A stretch of 64,000 bases of DNA from Paenibacillus sp. V4I3. Its GTDB lineage: Bacteria > Bacillota > Bacilli > Paenibacillales > NBRC-103111. The stretch lies in the NCBI RefSeq assembly GCF_030817215.1, contig NZ_JAUSZA010000001.1, forward strand, positions 6,732,501 to 6,796,500, written 5' to 3'. The notes below the pieces were generated by a model. The model saw only the letters and a program-made list of their open reading frames with translations. It did not search any database and was not told where the DNA came from. Shown here one piece after another: positions 55,362 to 63,564 of this stretch. How positions within the stretch are numbered: position 1 is the stretch's first letter; the number at the start of each line of letters is the position of its first letter. Both the position numbers and the translations under genes were made by a program.

Positions 55362-56705
55362 ATGACAAAACAAACTCGTCAAATGCATTTGAATCTTTTT
55401 CTTTCCAGTATGGGGCATCACGAAGCCGCCTGGCGACATCCAAGCTCTAATCTGAAAGGAGTCCATGATTTCAATCATTATCAGGAGCTCGCGCGTAAAG
55501 CCGAAGCTGCCAAGCTGGACTCGCTTTTTCTCGCTGACCGCTACGCAACTTCACCAACGGCGGTCCAATACGGCGCTCTTGGCGGTTTTGAGCCGCTCAC
55601 ACTATTGTCGGCTTTAGCCGTCGTGACGAAACGAATCGGTTTAATTGCCACCGTTTCCACGAGTTTCAATGAACCCTACAATGTCGCCCGCCGGTTCGCA
55701 TCATTGGACCACCTTAGCCAAGGCCGGGCCGGATGGAATATCATCACCTCGGGTACGGATAGCGAAGCGCAAAATTTTAATCTCGAGCACATTGCCGGTC
55801 ACCAAGAACGATATGAACGAGCCACAGAATTTGTGGAAGTCACGGCAAAGCTTTGGGATAGCTGGGAGGAGGAGGCCCTGATCCGGGACAAGAAAGCCGG
55901 TATTTATGCGGACAGAAATAAGGTGCATGAACTGCATCATAAGGGAAAATTCTTCTCGGTTCGGGGGCCATTGAATACAGCGCGTTCACCGCAAGGCCGC
56001 CCGATTCTCGTGCAAGCAGGCTCATCGGAGGACGGCAAGGATTTTGCCTCTCAATGGGCTGAGGCCATCTTTACCGCACAGCAAACATTAGAGGATGCGC
56101 AGACATTCTATGCTGATGTCAAAGCCCGTGTGCTTCAGCACGGAAGAGAAACGGAGCATGTGAAAATTTTGCCCGGTATCTGCCCGATTATCGGCAAAAC
56201 CGAAGCCGAGGCGAAAGAGAAAGAAGCCGAACTGCACGAACTGACGAATCCGGCATACAGTCTGCTCCAACTCTCGAATCGGATCGGCATTGACCTTACC
56301 GCTCATCCTCTGGACGCACCGCTGCCGGAACTTCCCGACTCCAGCAAAATCCCCGGCCATCAAAGCCGCACGAAGCTGATCCAAGAACTGGCCGGTAGAG
56401 AGAAGCTGACGATCAGGCAGCTGCTGCTGAGACTGGCGGGAGGACGCGGTCATAAGACGATCGCCGGTACGCCGAAGCAAATTACGGATGAGCTGGAGGC
56501 ATGGTTTGTCAGCTATGCGGCTGATGGCTTCAATATTATGCCGCAGCTGATGAACGGCGGACTGGATGATTTCCTGGAACAAGTCGTCCCCGAACTGCAG
56601 CGGAGAGGCCTGTTCCGCACTTCTTATACAGGCACCACCCTTCGTGATCATTATGGCCTGCCTTTACCTGCCAATTCATTCGCGAAGGCGAGAGTATACC
56701 ATTGA
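55362..56705 (+). CDS. LLM-class FMN-dependent monooxygenase (NtaA/SnaA/DmoA family), copy 1
   Basis: 447 residues from the ATG at 55362, seven bases after GGGAGG; the earlier in-frame start lies in the leader hairpin. Bacterial luciferase-like TIM barrel: MHLNLFLSSMGHHEAAW, KLDSLFLADRYA, ERIGL-type strand, SLDHLSQGRAGWNIITS, and GTPKQITDELEAWFVSYAAD. The NtaA/SnaA/DszA/DmoA group uses FMNH2 and oxygen to split C-S or C-N bonds. Placed beside an SsuABC importer it probably releases sulfite from sulfonates or sulfones. Its paralogues follow directly. Confidence 0.88.
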   Translation: MTKQTRQMHLNLFLSSMGHHEAAWRHPSSNLKGVHDFNHYQELARKAEAAKLDSLFLADRYATSPTAVQYGALGGFEPLTLLSALAVVTKRIGLIATVSTSFNEPYNVARRFASLDHLSQGRAGWNIITSGTDSEAQNFNLEHIAGHQERYERATEFVEVTAKLWDSWEEEALIRDKKAGIYADRNKVHELHHKGKFFSVRGPLNTARSPQGRPILVQAGSSEDGKDFASQWAEAIFTAQQTLEDAQTFYADVKARVLQHGRETEHVKILPGICPIIGKTEAEAKEKEAELHELTNPAYSLLQLSNRIGIDLTAHPLDAPLPELPDSSKIPGHQSRTKLIQELAGREKLTIRQLLLRLAGGRGHKTIAGTPKQITDELEAWFVSYAADGFNIMPQLMNGGLDDFLEQVVPELQRRGLFRTSYTGTTLRDHYGLPLPANSFAKARVYH

Positions 56706-56739
56706 ACCAATCAACCTACTTGTAAATGGAGGCTATTAC

Positions 56740-58098
56740 ATGAGTAACAATCCTCAGCGTCAACTGCATCTCGGTGCATTTTTATTTCAGGTCGGACATC
56801 ATGTAGCCGCATGGCGTTACCCCGATACGGATGCACACGGCATTCTAAATCATGACTTTTATGAGAACTTTGCGAAAACGGCAGAACGAGGCAAGTTCGA
56901 CATGATCTTTCTCGCCGATACATTAGCGGTTATCGACCGGTACCGAACCAGTATCAAACATACCGTCACAGTGAGGCCTGAACCGCTCACCTTGCTTGCT
57001 TATTTGTCCGGTGTGACGGAACGAATCGGGCTTGCTGCCACAGTATCAACAACCTACCACGAGCCCTACAATCTGGCACGGGAATTTTCTACGCTCGACC
57101 ATTTAAGCGGAGGACGCGCTGCGTGGAATGTGGTGACTTCGGGACGAGATGAAGAAGCCCATAATTTCAGCAAATTGAAGCACCCGGATCATGATCAGCG
57201 ATATGAGCGGGCGCGCGAGTTCGTCGATGTCGTCACTGCGCTGTGGGACAGCTGGGAAGACGACGCCATTATCTCCGATCGCGACGCCGGCTTGTTTGGC
57301 AATCCGCAAAAGGTTCATGAGCTCCATCATCGGGGTCCTGAATTCTCTGTACGTGGTCCCTTAAATCTGCCCCGCTCTCCACAAGGAAGACCGGTTATTA
57401 TTCAGGCGGGAGCGTCGGATACCGGACAGCATCTCGCCGCCCAAACGGCGGAGGTCGTCTTTACGGCTTGGCAGACACTCGAAGAAGCGCAGCGTTTCTA
57501 TGCCAGCGTCAAATCACTTGCCGTTCAGTACGGCCGATCTCCGGATGAAGTGAAAATTATGCCTGGGATCTTCCCTATCATAGGCGCGACGGAAGAGGAA
57601 GCCAGAGAAAAAGAAGCGCTGCTTCAGCAGCAAGTGTTACCTGCAGTCGGATTATCGATGCTGTCCGCATCGCTGGGTGTCGACCTGACCGGCTACCCGC
57701 TTGACGGACCGCTGCCCGAGCTTCCCGAGCTGGAGCAAATTAACGGAGGCAAAAGCCGCTTCCAGCTCGTGGCGGACATGGCCCGGAGGGAAAACTTGAC
57801 CATCCGGCAGCTCATGTACCGGGTGACGGGGGCGCGCGGGCATCGAACCATATCTGGTACTCCGGTGCAAATCGCCGATCAATTGGAGGAATGGTTCACA
57901 CAGGGAGCCTGCGACGGTTTCAATATTATGCCGCCCTATTTGCCTGGAGGCCTTGAGGAATTCGTAGAGAAGATCATTCCCGAGCTTCAAAAACGCGGGC
58001 TATTTCGTACCGAATACACCGGTACTACGCTGCGTGAGCATCTGGGTTTAGTTCGTCCCCCAAGCCGTTTCGAAAGCAATGCCGCTTCCGGGCAATAA
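56740..58098 (+). CDS. LLM-class FMN-dependent monooxygenase, copy 2
   Basis: 452 residues from the ATG at 56740, after GGAGG. Same family as copy 1 with closely parallel motifs (RQLHLGAFLFQVGHHVAAWR, FDMIFLADTLAV, STLDHLSGGRAAWNVVTS, GARGHRTISGTPVQIADQLE, DGFNIMPPYLPGGLEEF). It is more similar to copy 3 than to copy 1. Thirty-four nucleotides after copy 1, so co-transcribed. Needs a flavin reductase, which is not visible in the cluster. Confidence 0.88.
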   Translation: MSNNPQRQLHLGAFLFQVGHHVAAWRYPDTDAHGILNHDFYENFAKTAERGKFDMIFLADTLAVIDRYRTSIKHTVTVRPEPLTLLAYLSGVTERIGLAATVSTTYHEPYNLAREFSTLDHLSGGRAAWNVVTSGRDEEAHNFSKLKHPDHDQRYERAREFVDVVTALWDSWEDDAIISDRDAGLFGNPQKVHELHHRGPEFSVRGPLNLPRSPQGRPVIIQAGASDTGQHLAAQTAEVVFTAWQTLEEAQRFYASVKSLAVQYGRSPDEVKIMPGIFPIIGATEEEAREKEALLQQQVLPAVGLSMLSASLGVDLTGYPLDGPLPELPELEQINGGKSRFQLVADMARRENLTIRQLMYRVTGARGHRTISGTPVQIADQLEEWFTQGACDGFNIMPPYLPGGLEEFVEKIIPELQKRGLFRTEYTGTTLREHLGLVRPPSRFESNAASGQ

Positions 58099-58124
58099 CA
58101 CATAACAAATTGGAGGAATCATTC

Positions 58125-59477
58125 ATGGGGAATAAACAGAGACAGCTTCATCTGGGGGCATTCATTTTCGGAGTCGGTCATCATGTCGCTGCATGGAGAT
58201 ACCCGCACACCGATACCGCAGGTTTGTTGAAGTTTGACTTTTACCGAAAATTTGCGCAAACGGCCGAGCGCGGTAAGTTCGACATGATTTTTATCGAAGA
58301 CATTCCTGCCTTACCGGAGCATTTGGACACAGCGGTTAAACACACCGTGCCGGTCCGGGCTGAGCCGCTCATGCTTTTGTCTGCACTCGCTTCCGTCACC
58401 AAGCATATCGGCCTTGCCGGCACCGTATCTACCACTTACAGCGAGCCCTTTCATGTCGCGAGGAAATTTGCGTCACTTGATCATTTAAGCAGAGGAAGAG
58501 CGGCATGGAACGCGGTAACCACCAGTATGGAAGTGACCGCGCATAACTTTGGCCGCGACCAGCATTTGGATCATTCGCTTCGTTATGAACGCGCGAAAGA
58601 ATTCGTCGATGTGGTCACTGCACTGTGGGACAGCTGGGAAGATGAAGCTCTAATCATTGACAAAGCTTCCGGCATTTTCGCCAACCCGGACAAAGTGCAC
58701 AGCATCGATCATCACGGAACGCATTTTTCCGTCCGCGGTCCTCTGAATGTGCATCGCTCCCCGCAAGGACGCCCCGTTATCGTGCAGGCCGGGTCCTCGA
58801 CAACCGGTCAGGCTTTTGCTGCACAGACAGCGGAAGTTGTATTCACGGCTTGGCAAACGTTGGATGAGGCACTAAGCTTCTATTCCAGTTTAAAAAGCCA
58901 ACTCCCCTTATATGGCCGTACAGAGAGTGAGTTGAAGATTTTGCCGGGGATACTCCCTATTATCGGAGCTACGGAAGAAGAAGCCAAGGAGAAGGAGGCC
59001 GCTCTGCAAGAGCTCGTTCACCCGGCGGTTGGTCTCTCGATGATATCCGGGATTCTGCGGCATGATCTTTCCACTTATCATCTGGACGGAACGCTCCCCG
59101 ATCTGGTGGACTCCACGGGTATTAACGGGGCAAAAAGCCGATATCAGCTTATTCTCGATATGGCGAGGAGGGAGCAGCTATCCATTCGGCAATTAATCGC
59201 CCGAGTAACCGGCGCACGCGGGCACCGTACGATTGCCGGGACACCTGAACAGATCGCCGATCAACTCGAAGCATGGTTTTTGCAAGGGGCCTGCGATGGA
59301 TTCAACATTATGCCGCCTTATTTACCGGGAGGTTTGGAAGAATTCGTCGATCTGGTCGTTCCTGAACTCCAGCGACGCGGATTGTATCGTACCGAATATA
59401 CGGGCCGGACGCTGCGCGAACACCTTGACTTAGCTAAACCGATCAATCGTTTTCAGAAAGCCTCAGTCTCCTCTTAA
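58125..59477 (+). CDS. LLM-class FMN-dependent monooxygenase, copy 3
   Basis: 450 residues from the ATG at 58125, eight bases after GGAGG; a TTG at 58110 is inside the ribosome site. Family motifs as in copy 2 (QLHLGAFIFGVGHHVAAWRY, SLDHLSRGRAAWNAVTT, GARGHRTIAGTPEQIADQLE). Copies 2 and 3 look like a recent tandem duplication that has diverged in the active-site strands (IFLADTLAVIDRY against IFIEDIPALPEHL), which suggests different substrates. Confidence 0.88.
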   Translation: MGNKQRQLHLGAFIFGVGHHVAAWRYPHTDTAGLLKFDFYRKFAQTAERGKFDMIFIEDIPALPEHLDTAVKHTVPVRAEPLMLLSALASVTKHIGLAGTVSTTYSEPFHVARKFASLDHLSRGRAAWNAVTTSMEVTAHNFGRDQHLDHSLRYERAKEFVDVVTALWDSWEDEALIIDKASGIFANPDKVHSIDHHGTHFSVRGPLNVHRSPQGRPVIVQAGSSTTGQAFAAQTAEVVFTAWQTLDEALSFYSSLKSQLPLYGRTESELKILPGILPIIGATEEEAKEKEAALQELVHPAVGLSMISGILRHDLSTYHLDGTLPDLVDSTGINGAKSRYQLILDMARREQLSIRQLIARVTGARGHRTIAGTPEQIADQLEAWFLQGACDGFNIMPPYLPGGLEEFVDLVVPELQRRGLYRTEYTGRTLREHLDLAKPINRFQKASVSS

Positions 59478-61411: not shown

Positions 61412-62058
61412 TTATGGCTTTCTTTTATACGAATATGCAGTACTGTTATCAAACTGTTCCTGCCAATCCGGAGCGGCAATTCCCGAAACGCTTCCTTTCA
61501 ACAAAGGGTCTTTCGTACGGCTCATCCAAGCATCAACCTTAGACCTTAGCTCTATAAGAACTTCCGCATACTCTGGAAGGTTGGCAACGTTACATTTTTC
61601 AATCGGATCCTTCTCCAAATCGTACAACTCCTCCGGAACGTTAGGAGCGTAATACTCATCTCTTACGACAACTCCCGAAAGATTCGATGAATATCAAGCG
61701 GCAAGTAAACCGACGGGCCATCCTCAAAGTTACGGATATATTTAAATTTCCCTGTCCATACACTCCGCATAGGGTGATATTGGTCATGCCAGGTAAGCTC
61801 AGAAAAGGAATGATCGCGGGTTGGCAGATTACTTTCCGCAGGTTTCAATAGGTTCAAAAAGCTGTTTCTATCAATCCCTTGCGGGACATCTGCTCCAATA
61901 AATTCGAGGAGAGTCGGCATTAAGTCTACGTTGCATAACAGTTGATTTACAACCTTACCTCCATCCATACGCCCAGGATAATACATGACTAGCGCTGTTT
62001 CCAAACCAGCATCCATCAAAGTACCTTTGGCTCTCGGGAAAGCGATACCGTGATCGCT
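61412..62058 (-). pseudogene. sulfatase C-terminal fragment, frameshifted
   Basis: DHGIAFPRAKGTLMDAGLET, then VDLMPTLLEFIGADVPQGID and SVWTGKFKYIRNFE belong to alkaline-phosphatase-superfamily sulfatases. At about 61,660 the frame shifts; the neighbouring frame continues with SGVVVRDEYYAPNVPEEL and YDLEKDPIEKCNVANLPEY. The N-terminal half with the formylglycine cysteine is missing: the 5' end is fused to an ABC ATPase gene at a short GCGATC overlap. Confidence 0.75.
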
Positions 62059-62512
62059 ACTCGCTGCCGCTGTCCACCAGACAGCTCCGAAGGAAAGTGC
62101 TTCCTGCGGTCCAGTAAATCCACCGCTTCCAATGCATGAAATACAAGCGGCTCCCGCTCTTTCTTGCTCATTCCCCGATAAATCAAAGGCAGCTCCACAT
62201 TCTCATAAGCACTTAATCTCGGCAGCAAGTTAAAACTCTGAAAAACGAAGCCAATCTTCTGATTACGAATCTCAGCAAGCCCAGAATCCTTAAGACATTT
62301 ATTGCATGACCATCCAGATCATAGATACCTTTATCTACAACATCCAAACACCCGATGATGTTCATCAGTGTTGATTTGCCGGAACCTGACGGTCCCATGA
62401 TTGCCACGAACTCTCCATAATCAATATCTAACGAGACATCGTCTAACGCTTTAATCGTTTCCTCGCCCATCGTATAATACTTACTGGCATTTTCAATATG
62501 AATTAATGTCAT
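62055..62512 (-). pseudogene. ABC transporter ATPase (MacB/LolD type), frameshifted and truncated
   Basis: From the ATG at 62512 (after GGAGGTGAAGG): IHIENASKYYTMGEETIKAL, Walker A GPSGSGKST, MNIIGCLDVVDKGIYDLDG. Near 62,295 the frame shifts; the next frame gives LAEIRNQKIGFVFQSFNLLP, NVELPLIYRGMSKKEREP and signature LSGGQRQRVAI, and then runs into the sulfatase. Walker B and the rest are lost. Confidence 0.78.
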
Positions 62513-62572
62513 AACCTTCACCTCCATTACTTGCACATCGTCCAAATAAATGAAGTATCCGATTCGTAACCC

Positions 62573-62938
62573 TTATCGTTTCGCCTTATAAAACTCATGA
62601 TACAGTTTCATCAGCGCCCTCTTCTCAATCCGCGACACATAGGAGCGGCTAATGCCCAGCTCCTTCGCAATCTCTCGCTGCGTCCGCTCTTCACCGCCAA
62701 GCTCCAGCCCAAACCGGCCAACGACGACTTCCTTCTCGCGATCGTCCAAGATTTCCAAGTTCCGATATATTTTACTCTTCTCTATCTTGAGCTGAACCTT
62801 ATCCACGACATCATCGGCCTCCGTGCCGAGAATATCGATCAACGTGATTTCATTCCCCTCTTTGTCCGTTCCGATGGGATCATGCAAGGAAACATCTTTG
62901 CGCGTTTTCTTCAGCGAGCGCAGATGCATTAAGATCTC
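62573..62938 (-). pseudogene. sigK: sporulation sigma factor K, C-terminal half (SpoIIIC-like)
   Basis: Encodes [37 protein letters not shown] and [20 protein letters not shown]: sigma regions 3 and 4 of SigK, clearly closer to SigK than to SigE/F/G. Similarity begins abruptly at Glu-Ile-Leu just before MHLR, and an in-frame TAA lies one codon further upstream. In Bacillus subtilis the skin element splits sigK (spoIVCB/spoIIIC) at the matching place. Either the gene is interrupted by a developmentally excised element continuing to the right, or it is a plain truncation. There is no independent ribosome site. Confidence 0.8.
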
Positions 62939-62985
62939 TATTTAAATGTCATAAGTGTTCATTTGACACTTCTTAGATACATTTG
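62939..62985. other. sequence at the sigK break, candidate recombination site
   Basis: AAGTGTTCATTTGACACTT, an imperfect palindrome, lies within 25 nt of the point where SigK similarity stops. Serine-recombinase attachment sites are often imperfect palindromes; the assignment is speculative. Confidence 0.25.
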
Positions 62986-63564
62986 GAGCATTACTTTTCA
63001 TAGAACCTTTGAATTGATTAAATTTTTAGATGCTTAACATTAATTTTAAAGAAATTGAAGAAAATACTTCTTACCTAACCTTTAGTTTTTGAATAACTCA
63101 AACCAAATTAAAATAGATGTAAAAGAAATCTTTCTCCCCCGACACAGTAACACTGGAAACCTATTTTTCTCCGCAACTTTATATACGAACAGCCGCTGAA
63201 CTCTACTAACGTTGCAAGCGGAACAAGCAACGGTAAGAGTACATCATTTATTGGGAAAAGAACACCTCCCTGCATCCTATCAAAGAAGTATTTAAGGATT
63301 AATAACCCTATCCTCAAAGAGAATGGGGATTATTTTTTATTTAGCATTTGTTTATTCTTACTTTGATGAGATTTTATTCAAATTTATGGAAGCGTTGCTT
63401 GGTGTACACAACCTTTTGACGTCCCGAACGGGTGCTCCGTTAACCATGAGCAGGTGTCAGACGAGAGGCTTAATCCGAAGGAAGCTGATTGCAGTTGAAG
63501 AACGGCTTGATTAGCGAAAACTGCCAGTCAATGCTCAAACCAAAACTTATACATTTTCACTATC
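62986..63564. other. intergenic region right of sigK, no supported gene
   Basis: AT-rich sequence with short frames on both strands, none with motifs or ribosome sites. If a skin-like element interrupts sigK, this is its left end. Confidence 0.4.

Follow-up and report, generated by a model that had tools for sequence, protein, structure and literature searches.

A truncated sigK gene in the window

The stretch analysed here, referred to as the window, comprises 64,000 bases (positions 6732501-6796500) of a single contig of 8,171,314 bases. It holds the 3' part of a sigK gene on the minus strand together with a broken ABC transporter gene and sequences that we assign to the ends of two kinds of element. 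In window coordinates, the features are as follows.

62016..62318, minus strand: remainder of the ABC ATPase gene in a second frame (same gene as 62213..62572)
62213..62572, minus strand: 5' part of an ABC transporter ATPase gene, broken by a frameshift
62573..62941, minus strand: sigK relic, codons 116-236 and stop; a 122-aa frame whose residue 1 (Ile) is part of the foreign end
62939..62953, minus strand: putative skin-type element end abutting sigK, reading TATGACATTTAAATA/GAGAT, with the GAGAT core at 62934-62938
62946..62978, no strand assigned: imperfect palindrome next to the break, with two 13-nt arms (77% complementary); it overlaps the skin-type element end
63278..63392, minus strand: remnant of an element right end with a terminator-like repeat
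63393..63419, minus strand: right end of a codon-69/70 sigK element, TCAAAAGGTTGTGTACACCAAGCAACG, with 1 mismatch to the end at 3390575

The translated relic frame (I-EILMHLR...KAKR) aligned with SigK profile models from position 112-114 through to the end, and agreed at all 121 aligned residues (100% identity) with the 3' part of the genome's intact SigK, the 236-aa frame on which codon numbering is based throughout. The break lies at codon 115/116 in the context Cys-Ile-Glu-Asn/Glu-Ile, which we take to be the position of the B. subtilis skin element. The sequence-only reading of this DNA had placed the cut at the skin position and had noted both an imperfect palindrome beside it and a decayed neighbourhood. 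All three observations hold: the palindrome arms occupy 62946-62958 and 62966-62978 with a 7-nt spacer, and the ABC ATPase after the sigK piece is split over two frames. This ATPase is also the 3' neighbour of sigK in the genome's other full-length copies, and an intact 235-aa homologue follows the intact sigK.

The element right end at 63393-63419 sits 450 bases to the right of the sigK piece, and its outer flank holds neither a sigK N-terminal half (N-half) nor a left element end. The remnant next to it is 88% similar to 3390573-3390715, a region beside an XRE-type regulator. On that outer flank, at window 63393-63440, the right end adjoins GTTCGGGACG (minus strand), possibly a secondary target or the product of a later rearrangement. 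Elsewhere in the window, two similar adjacent flavin monooxygenase-like genes, recognized by eye, and then a substrate-binding lipoprotein gene (56554-59477, plus strand) are probably ordinary cargo.

Further sigK copies in the chromosome and the genus

An intact sigK of 236 aa is present at 7010038-7010745 on the minus strand, 215 kb to the right of the window relic. With the pieces of any one relic counted once, the chromosome contains 11 sigK relics, at the following positions.

6640, 6689, 6795 (window), 6807, 6943, 6963 and 6989 kb, minus strand
3327, 3357, 3369 and 4973 kb, plus strand

Two relics at 3.33 and 3.37 Mb (plus strand), with fragments at 3.36 and 4.97 Mb, are remote from the row that the others form. 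Such extra copies are widespread: at least 27 of 30 genomes of the genus carry sigK pieces besides the intact gene, and no extra piece appeared among the matches listed for G008, G011 and G019. The intact gene itself was found in 27 of the 30, being interrupted by a contig end in G013, G014 and G023. Of 51 relics listed from contigs that also bear the intact gene, 49 are downstream of it on the same strand, and the other two are the 3.33- and 3.37-Mb copies of this genome. In P. alginolyticus and P. marchantiophytorum the assembly has contig breaks within the row.

The full-length copies in this chromosome, and those read in G016 and G017, have a common order of 3' half, ABC ATPase and then varying cargo. 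The youngest cassette of this chromosome spans 6989.7-7010.7 kb, and the eight of its proteins that were tested comprise a large SLH-domain protein, a GH123 enzyme, an oxidoreductase, two transporter permeases, an AraC-type response regulator, a histidine kinase and one unmatched protein; no recombinase was found among these eight. Four related tyrosine recombinase frames of 217-292 aa near the 3.37-Mb relic (G000:C1 3177289-3178131, 3282473-3283126, 3308305-3309147 and 3370756-3371634) were considered and set aside, as no link to sigK junctions was seen; some lie near Tn7-type-like transposition genes, as judged by eye.

A common junction at codon 69/70

Full-length relics start at codon 69/70, unlike the window piece. 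Their 5' junction, TACGTTGCTTCGTGTTCACAACCTC/AA/AAAATTCGA, is common to 52 relics from 22 genomes; the 40 fetched relics were chosen from matches starting near codon 64-66, so that in them the end was kept by selection, and the window relic, which has no codon-69/70 end, is not among the 52. Over the 25 bases before AA these relics match the consensus TACGTTGCTTCGTGTTCACAACCTC at a median of 22 positions, with a minimum of 13 in a relic where a 2-base insertion shifts the comparison, and the 25 bases beyond these vary for the most part, except in a few columns adjoining the end. The same 25 positions match the consensus at 13 or fewer in the intact genes (n = 26; G024 was left out here and is included in the 27-gene dN/dS set below). 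We place the crossover at AA because the base preceding it is C in 51 of the 52 relics but mixed in the 26 intact genes (A, G, C and T in 10, 8, 7 and 1).

Across the 30 genomes, a search for N-halves found a single one in 25. The other five have extra N-halves, namely G002 (a fragment), G004, G009, G010 (two) and G027, and in all six extra N-halves the sequence after AA resembles the reverse complement of the relic end. These six mirror junctions (sigK N-half/AA/reversed end) in five genomes give the reciprocal attL/attR arrangement around a short core that is expected of an element moved by a serine recombinase, with 52 attL-type, 6 attR-type and 26 attB sites and AA as the core. In this genome, the only sigK N-half detected is that of the intact gene.

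Palindromic sites composed of both ends, the form expected of attP, were found in G017 and G013, and this genome has a composite site at 3390552; a search of IMG/VR for the attP-type palindrome gave 0 matches. The two near-perfect examples are chromosomal, at G017:C1:3931379-3931426 (L095, L102) and G013:C93:24582 (L097, L101). The G017 palindrome adjoins an XRE-type regulator and a gene that, judged by eye, resembles orf111 fused to a phosphotransferase.

A serine recombinase and a sigK carried by the element

Genes with the PF07508 domain are present in 22 of the 30 genomes. In three of the 30, G004 (P. alginolyticus DSM 5050), G010 (P. marchantiophytorum) and G027, a large serine recombinase, here called LSR1, is encoded on the strand of intact sigK, about 1.8 kb upstream of it. 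LSR1 is a 560-aa frame in G004 and G010, and in G027 its N-terminal part deviates and appears damaged. In P. alginolyticus its gene is at L142:2212-3894. The G004 protein, the one scanned for domains, contains PF00239 (resolvase), PF07508 (Recombinase) and PF13408 (zinc ribbon). The order is LSR1, then orf290, then sigK; orf290 had no above-cut-off match in Pfam, PHROGs or NCBIfam. On contig G010:C14, an LSR1 pseudogene, orf290 and a sigK N-half joined to an element end follow one another in sequence, and therefore a sigK carried by one element has itself been entered by another.

Upstream of 10 of the 27 intact sigK genes we found orf290 and/or LSR1, or remnants of them, compared with 0 matches upstream of the same 27 genes for reversed orf290 as a control. 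The ten genomes are these.

G001, G002, G004, G005, G008, G009, G010, G021, G027, G028: intact sigK with element remnants upstream

Comparison of 16 N-halves from the genus indicates that a homologous leader begins about 105 bp before sigK, and it contains CATACACTAATAC, which we take to resemble a sigma-E-type -10 element. The element therefore carries, with this promoter-like leader, a complete and probably expressible sigK.

No match to LSR1, orf290, orf111 or LSR2 (a second recombinase, described below) was found in 520 kb of this genome (6632-7024 kb and 3300-3428 kb), and no element remnants lie upstream of its own intact sigK, so for this genome the mechanism proposed below rests on relatives. 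The one PF07508 recombinase of this genome was considered as the sigK enzyme and set aside, being 22-26% identical to LSR1 and LSR2 and located beside phage-like genes.

In a scan of GTDB contigs, 16 LSR1 relatives were found, of which 14 have all or part of sigK in their fetched flanks; in those where sigK is broken beside the recombinase, the break falls at codon 63-71. At an E-value of 1e-40, LSR1 matched nine records each in plasmids and phages, with a best identity of about 30-32%, and relatives in viral contigs numbered three loci at 46-53% identity. The same layout is seen in Paenibacillus wynnii (L200 10001-21233), where a recombinase of only 55% identity precedes a complete sigK, itself followed by two 3' halves. 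In a Heliobacteriaceae MAG (L207 8424-12056), a sigK N-half, a recombinase and a 3' half occupy about 4 kb, apparently an intervening element that hardly exceeds its recombinase gene in size.

Divergence of the copies

Five copies from this genome, the intact gene and four relics, were compared in 10 pairs. These copies seem to have diverged as working genes, because dS is 0.50-0.92 with dN of 0-0.022. Mean dN/dS is 0.019 in the 27 intact genes and 0.047 in 50 relics, a set that takes in three relics with stop codons, one of them frameshifted. The nearest relative of a relic is in another genome in 30 of 50 cases and in its own genome in 20. A tree was built from 49 relics and 27 intact genes, 76 3' halves in all, leaving out the frameshifted relic G023:C159. 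On it, the changes needed number 5 for the copies of this genome, 5 for G027 and 6 for G022, near the shuffled means, and 1 for G018, whose copies are clustered. An AU test does not reject a single clade for the copies of this genome (p 0.35), so a separate outside origin for each of its relics is not proved; horizontal supply fits the data, unproved copy by copy.

A second cut at codon 115/116

The window break has one close counterpart. Relic G004:C3:47545 begins at the same codon 116, after AATGACATTTATATA, and the two ends (TGACATTTAAATA/GAGAT in the window and TGACATTTATATA/GAGAT in G004) differ at one of 13 bases. Similarity between the two loci stops about 800 bases on, and the later cargo is non-homologous. 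Because these 13 bases recur at the same codon in the G004 relic, and the pattern run backwards as a control gave 0 matches in the 30 genomes, the break at codon 116 is, by this comparison of sequences, more than chance. The codon-116 end is common to only these two relics. A search for the partner junction of this end, allowing up to three mismatches, found nothing in this genome and two weak matches in others, the backwards control likewise returning two.

In two more distant loci, L198 (a Bacilli MAG) and L201 (Aneurinibacillus aneurinilyticus), sigK is interrupted in two places, codon 69/70 and codon 115/116. An LSR1 relative lies beside the codon-69/70 split in each, and a second large serine recombinase, LSR2, lies beside the codon-115/116 split. 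LSR2 is 62.6% identical between the two loci and about 30% identical to LSR1. The ends adjoining LSR2, GACATTAGAATA/GAGAT in L198 and GACTTTAGAGTC/GAGAT in L201, resemble the window end. As the window end recurs in the G004 relic and resembles these LSR2 junctions, the window's sigK copy was probably also interrupted by a skin-type element.

Proposed mechanism and alternative explanations

We propose that elements with an LSR1-type recombinase carry a whole sigK and nest within sigK, and that the window piece is a doubly cut relic of this process; we put the probability of this reading at roughly 0.8. The elements would form an integrative family moved by LSR1 (about 560 aa), which we infer to catalyse insertion at sigK codon 69/70 with AA as the crossover dinucleotide. 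The predicted order within an element is end, (XRE regulator), orf111, LSR1, orf290, whole sigK, ABC ATPase, cargo and end, the cargo including, for example, sugar-uptake and glycoside-hydrolase operons. Insertion would split the resident sigK, but the element would bring a complete copy with a promoter-like leader, so that the cell keeps sigma-K. Because the newly brought copy holds the same target, the next element would enter that copy, in the manner of nested dolls. Downstream, the expected product is a series of 3' halves that each have an ABC ATPase and old cargo behind them. The upstream product would be N-halves with LSR1, since lost in most genomes, probably via recombination between N-half repeats; this upstream half of the model is retained in only 5 of the 30 genomes. 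A classical skin-type element would at some time also have interrupted the window copy at codon 115/116, leaving the end that now adjoins the piece, and a simple history would be that a deletion joined the right end of a codon-69/70 element to the skin-type end.

A wider reading, for which we see the chances as even, is that sigK is a mobile-element passenger throughout the genus and that each lineage owes its sigma-K to the latest arrival. An incoming uninterrupted sigK could then release its host from a skin element, and the window relic would be the trace of one such replacement. If the elements work as proposed, gene breakage is tolerated here by bringing a full copy, as opposed to the skin elements' solution of leaving at the right time, and sigK would be a self-renewing landing site that gathers cargo amounting to tens or hundreds of kilobases. 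Each chromosome would preserve its insertions in an order that can be read, and the evolution of an essential sigma factor replaced from outside would be open to study. LSR1, its relatives and the att sites can be tested directly, and the skin-codon recombinase would offer an independent second site pair in sigK.

Of the alternatives, the one with most to recommend it holds that only the codon-69/70 elements are real here and that the break at codon 116 is the end of a deletion that happens to coincide with the skin codon. Other relics are indeed cut at assorted codons, with matches starting at 108, 110, 122, 124 and 132, and the codon-69/70 right end just 450 bp away implies some deletion at this place. 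We nevertheless consider a coincidence unlikely, given that TGACATTTAAATA/GAGAT recurs as TGACATTTATATA/GAGAT in G004 despite the non-homologous later cargo, and that the end resembles the L198 and L201 junctions adjoining LSR2.

An integron-like platform is more doubtful still. Here cassettes without a recombinase, each consisting of a sigK 3' half, ABC ATPase, cargo and end, would be inserted into sigK and cut out of it by a recombinase acting in trans, and no second N-half would ever be made. The 25 of 30 genomes with one N-half only, the relics that mostly have no N-half partner and the eight recombinase-free proteins of the youngest own cassette are all as this scheme would have them. Against it, mirror junctions with N-halves occur in five genomes, including all three that have LSR1, and in G010:C14 the sigK borne by an element has been split. 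The scheme would also require serine integrases to pair att sites in an unusual way.

Plain decay had been raised by the sequence-only reading; it would have acted on sigK regions duplicated in tandem or by unequal crossing-over, with a chance break at codon 116. It describes well the present state of the window copy and its decayed surroundings; several relics are frameshifted or deleted, and some copies cluster by genome. As an origin it is very improbable, since it leaves 11 relics and site-specific junctions unexplained: 52 relics from 22 genomes share a single 25-base foreign end at the same codon, the copies of this genome have a dS of 0.50-0.92 with near-identical protein, and the codon-116 end recurs elsewhere.

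A working skin element, with an N-half and recombinase further to the right and sigK rejoined in sporulation, is suggested by the cut at the skin codon and the adjoining skin-type end, but is scarcely credible beside an intact sigK at 7010038 whose N-half is the sole one found in the genome, a scanned array with no such recombinase, and a single, distant PF07508 gene beside phage-like genes. The earlier suggestion of an intervening element excised during sporulation is therefore not borne out by the intact 236-aa gene 215 kb to the right; the only N-half found in the genome is that of this gene, and neither recombinase type was found in 6632-7024 kb or 3300-3428 kb. The same reading had named an intact sigK elsewhere, with no N-half or recombinase on this side, as evidence against itself, and this is largely what the chromosome (7010038-7010745, minus strand) contains. 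What survives of it is the skin element as a fossil, in the skin codon and the skin-type end that recurs in the P. alginolyticus relic, and not as a functioning system. The nested LSR1-type elements proposed above, with one additional skin-type interruption, remain our preferred reading.

Comparison with known elements

Skin (sigK-intervening) elements are known from B. subtilis and C. difficile (PMC5025042, PMC6957869) and occupy different sites in sigK (PMC5025042). They share with the codon-69/70 elements a large serine recombinase, insertion inside sigK and att sites with inverted repeats. They differ in keeping sigK broken until excision in the mother cell, whereas here 27 of 30 genomes have an intact sigK, and the codon-69/70 elements, unlike skin elements, bring a whole sigK. 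The window piece itself resembles a skin insertion in its fixed site within sigK, codon 115/116, where a second relic has the same end. It differs in that no N-half was found other than that of the intact gene, no internal serine recombinase was found in the scan of 6632-7024 kb, and excision would not restore the only sigK, as an uninterrupted one exists.

A 22-kb island at nucleotide 195 of sigK in Bacillus cereus biovar anthracis is excised in sporulation (PMC10745906). By position, codon 65 of its sigK is at or near the same target, and its cargo is likewise non-phage. Its recombinase is 31% identical to SpoIVCA, as LSR1 is about 30% identical to LSR2, a likeness that lies in these figures. 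The island excises to restore the host gene, unlike the elements here, and neither a whole spare sigK nor a row of relics is described in the available text of PMC10745906. Phages integrated in sigK are also known, for example Alicyclobacillus phage MMB025 (PMC13141910), which like the sigK elements has a serine integrase and a target inside sigK. It differs in an integrase 31.6% identical to LSR1 (hit H10), the core TCTC, a phage genome and a disrupted sigK. Skin elements at differing sigK sites, sigK-integrated phages, non-phage intervening elements and the 22-kb sigK island are thus already known. In the open-access full-text literature, outside which most subscription papers fall, we found no account of elements carrying a whole sigK or of rows of sigK relics.

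The best NCBIfam matches of LSR1 are to the Ccr recombinases of staphylococcal cassette chromosome (SCC) elements, yet at 120.6 bits (CcrB) and 105.8 bits (CcrC) they score far below the cut-off of 900. SCC inserts in a housekeeping gene, carries cargo and piles up at one site. The target (rlmH as opposed to sigK), the position within the gene and the carriage of a whole target gene all distinguish the sigK elements from it. An integron would have a tyrosine integrase with adjoining cassettes, and the enzyme associated with the sigK elements is a serine recombinase. Finally, tDNA islands restore the gene that they split and leave a displaced fragment (PMC4383910), and they share this logic with the sigK elements, in that a regenerated target and a displaced fragment mark the ends. 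Their targets are tRNA and tmRNA genes and their integrases are of the tyrosine type, whereas the sigK elements carry a whole protein gene with its leader and their insertions nest inside one another.
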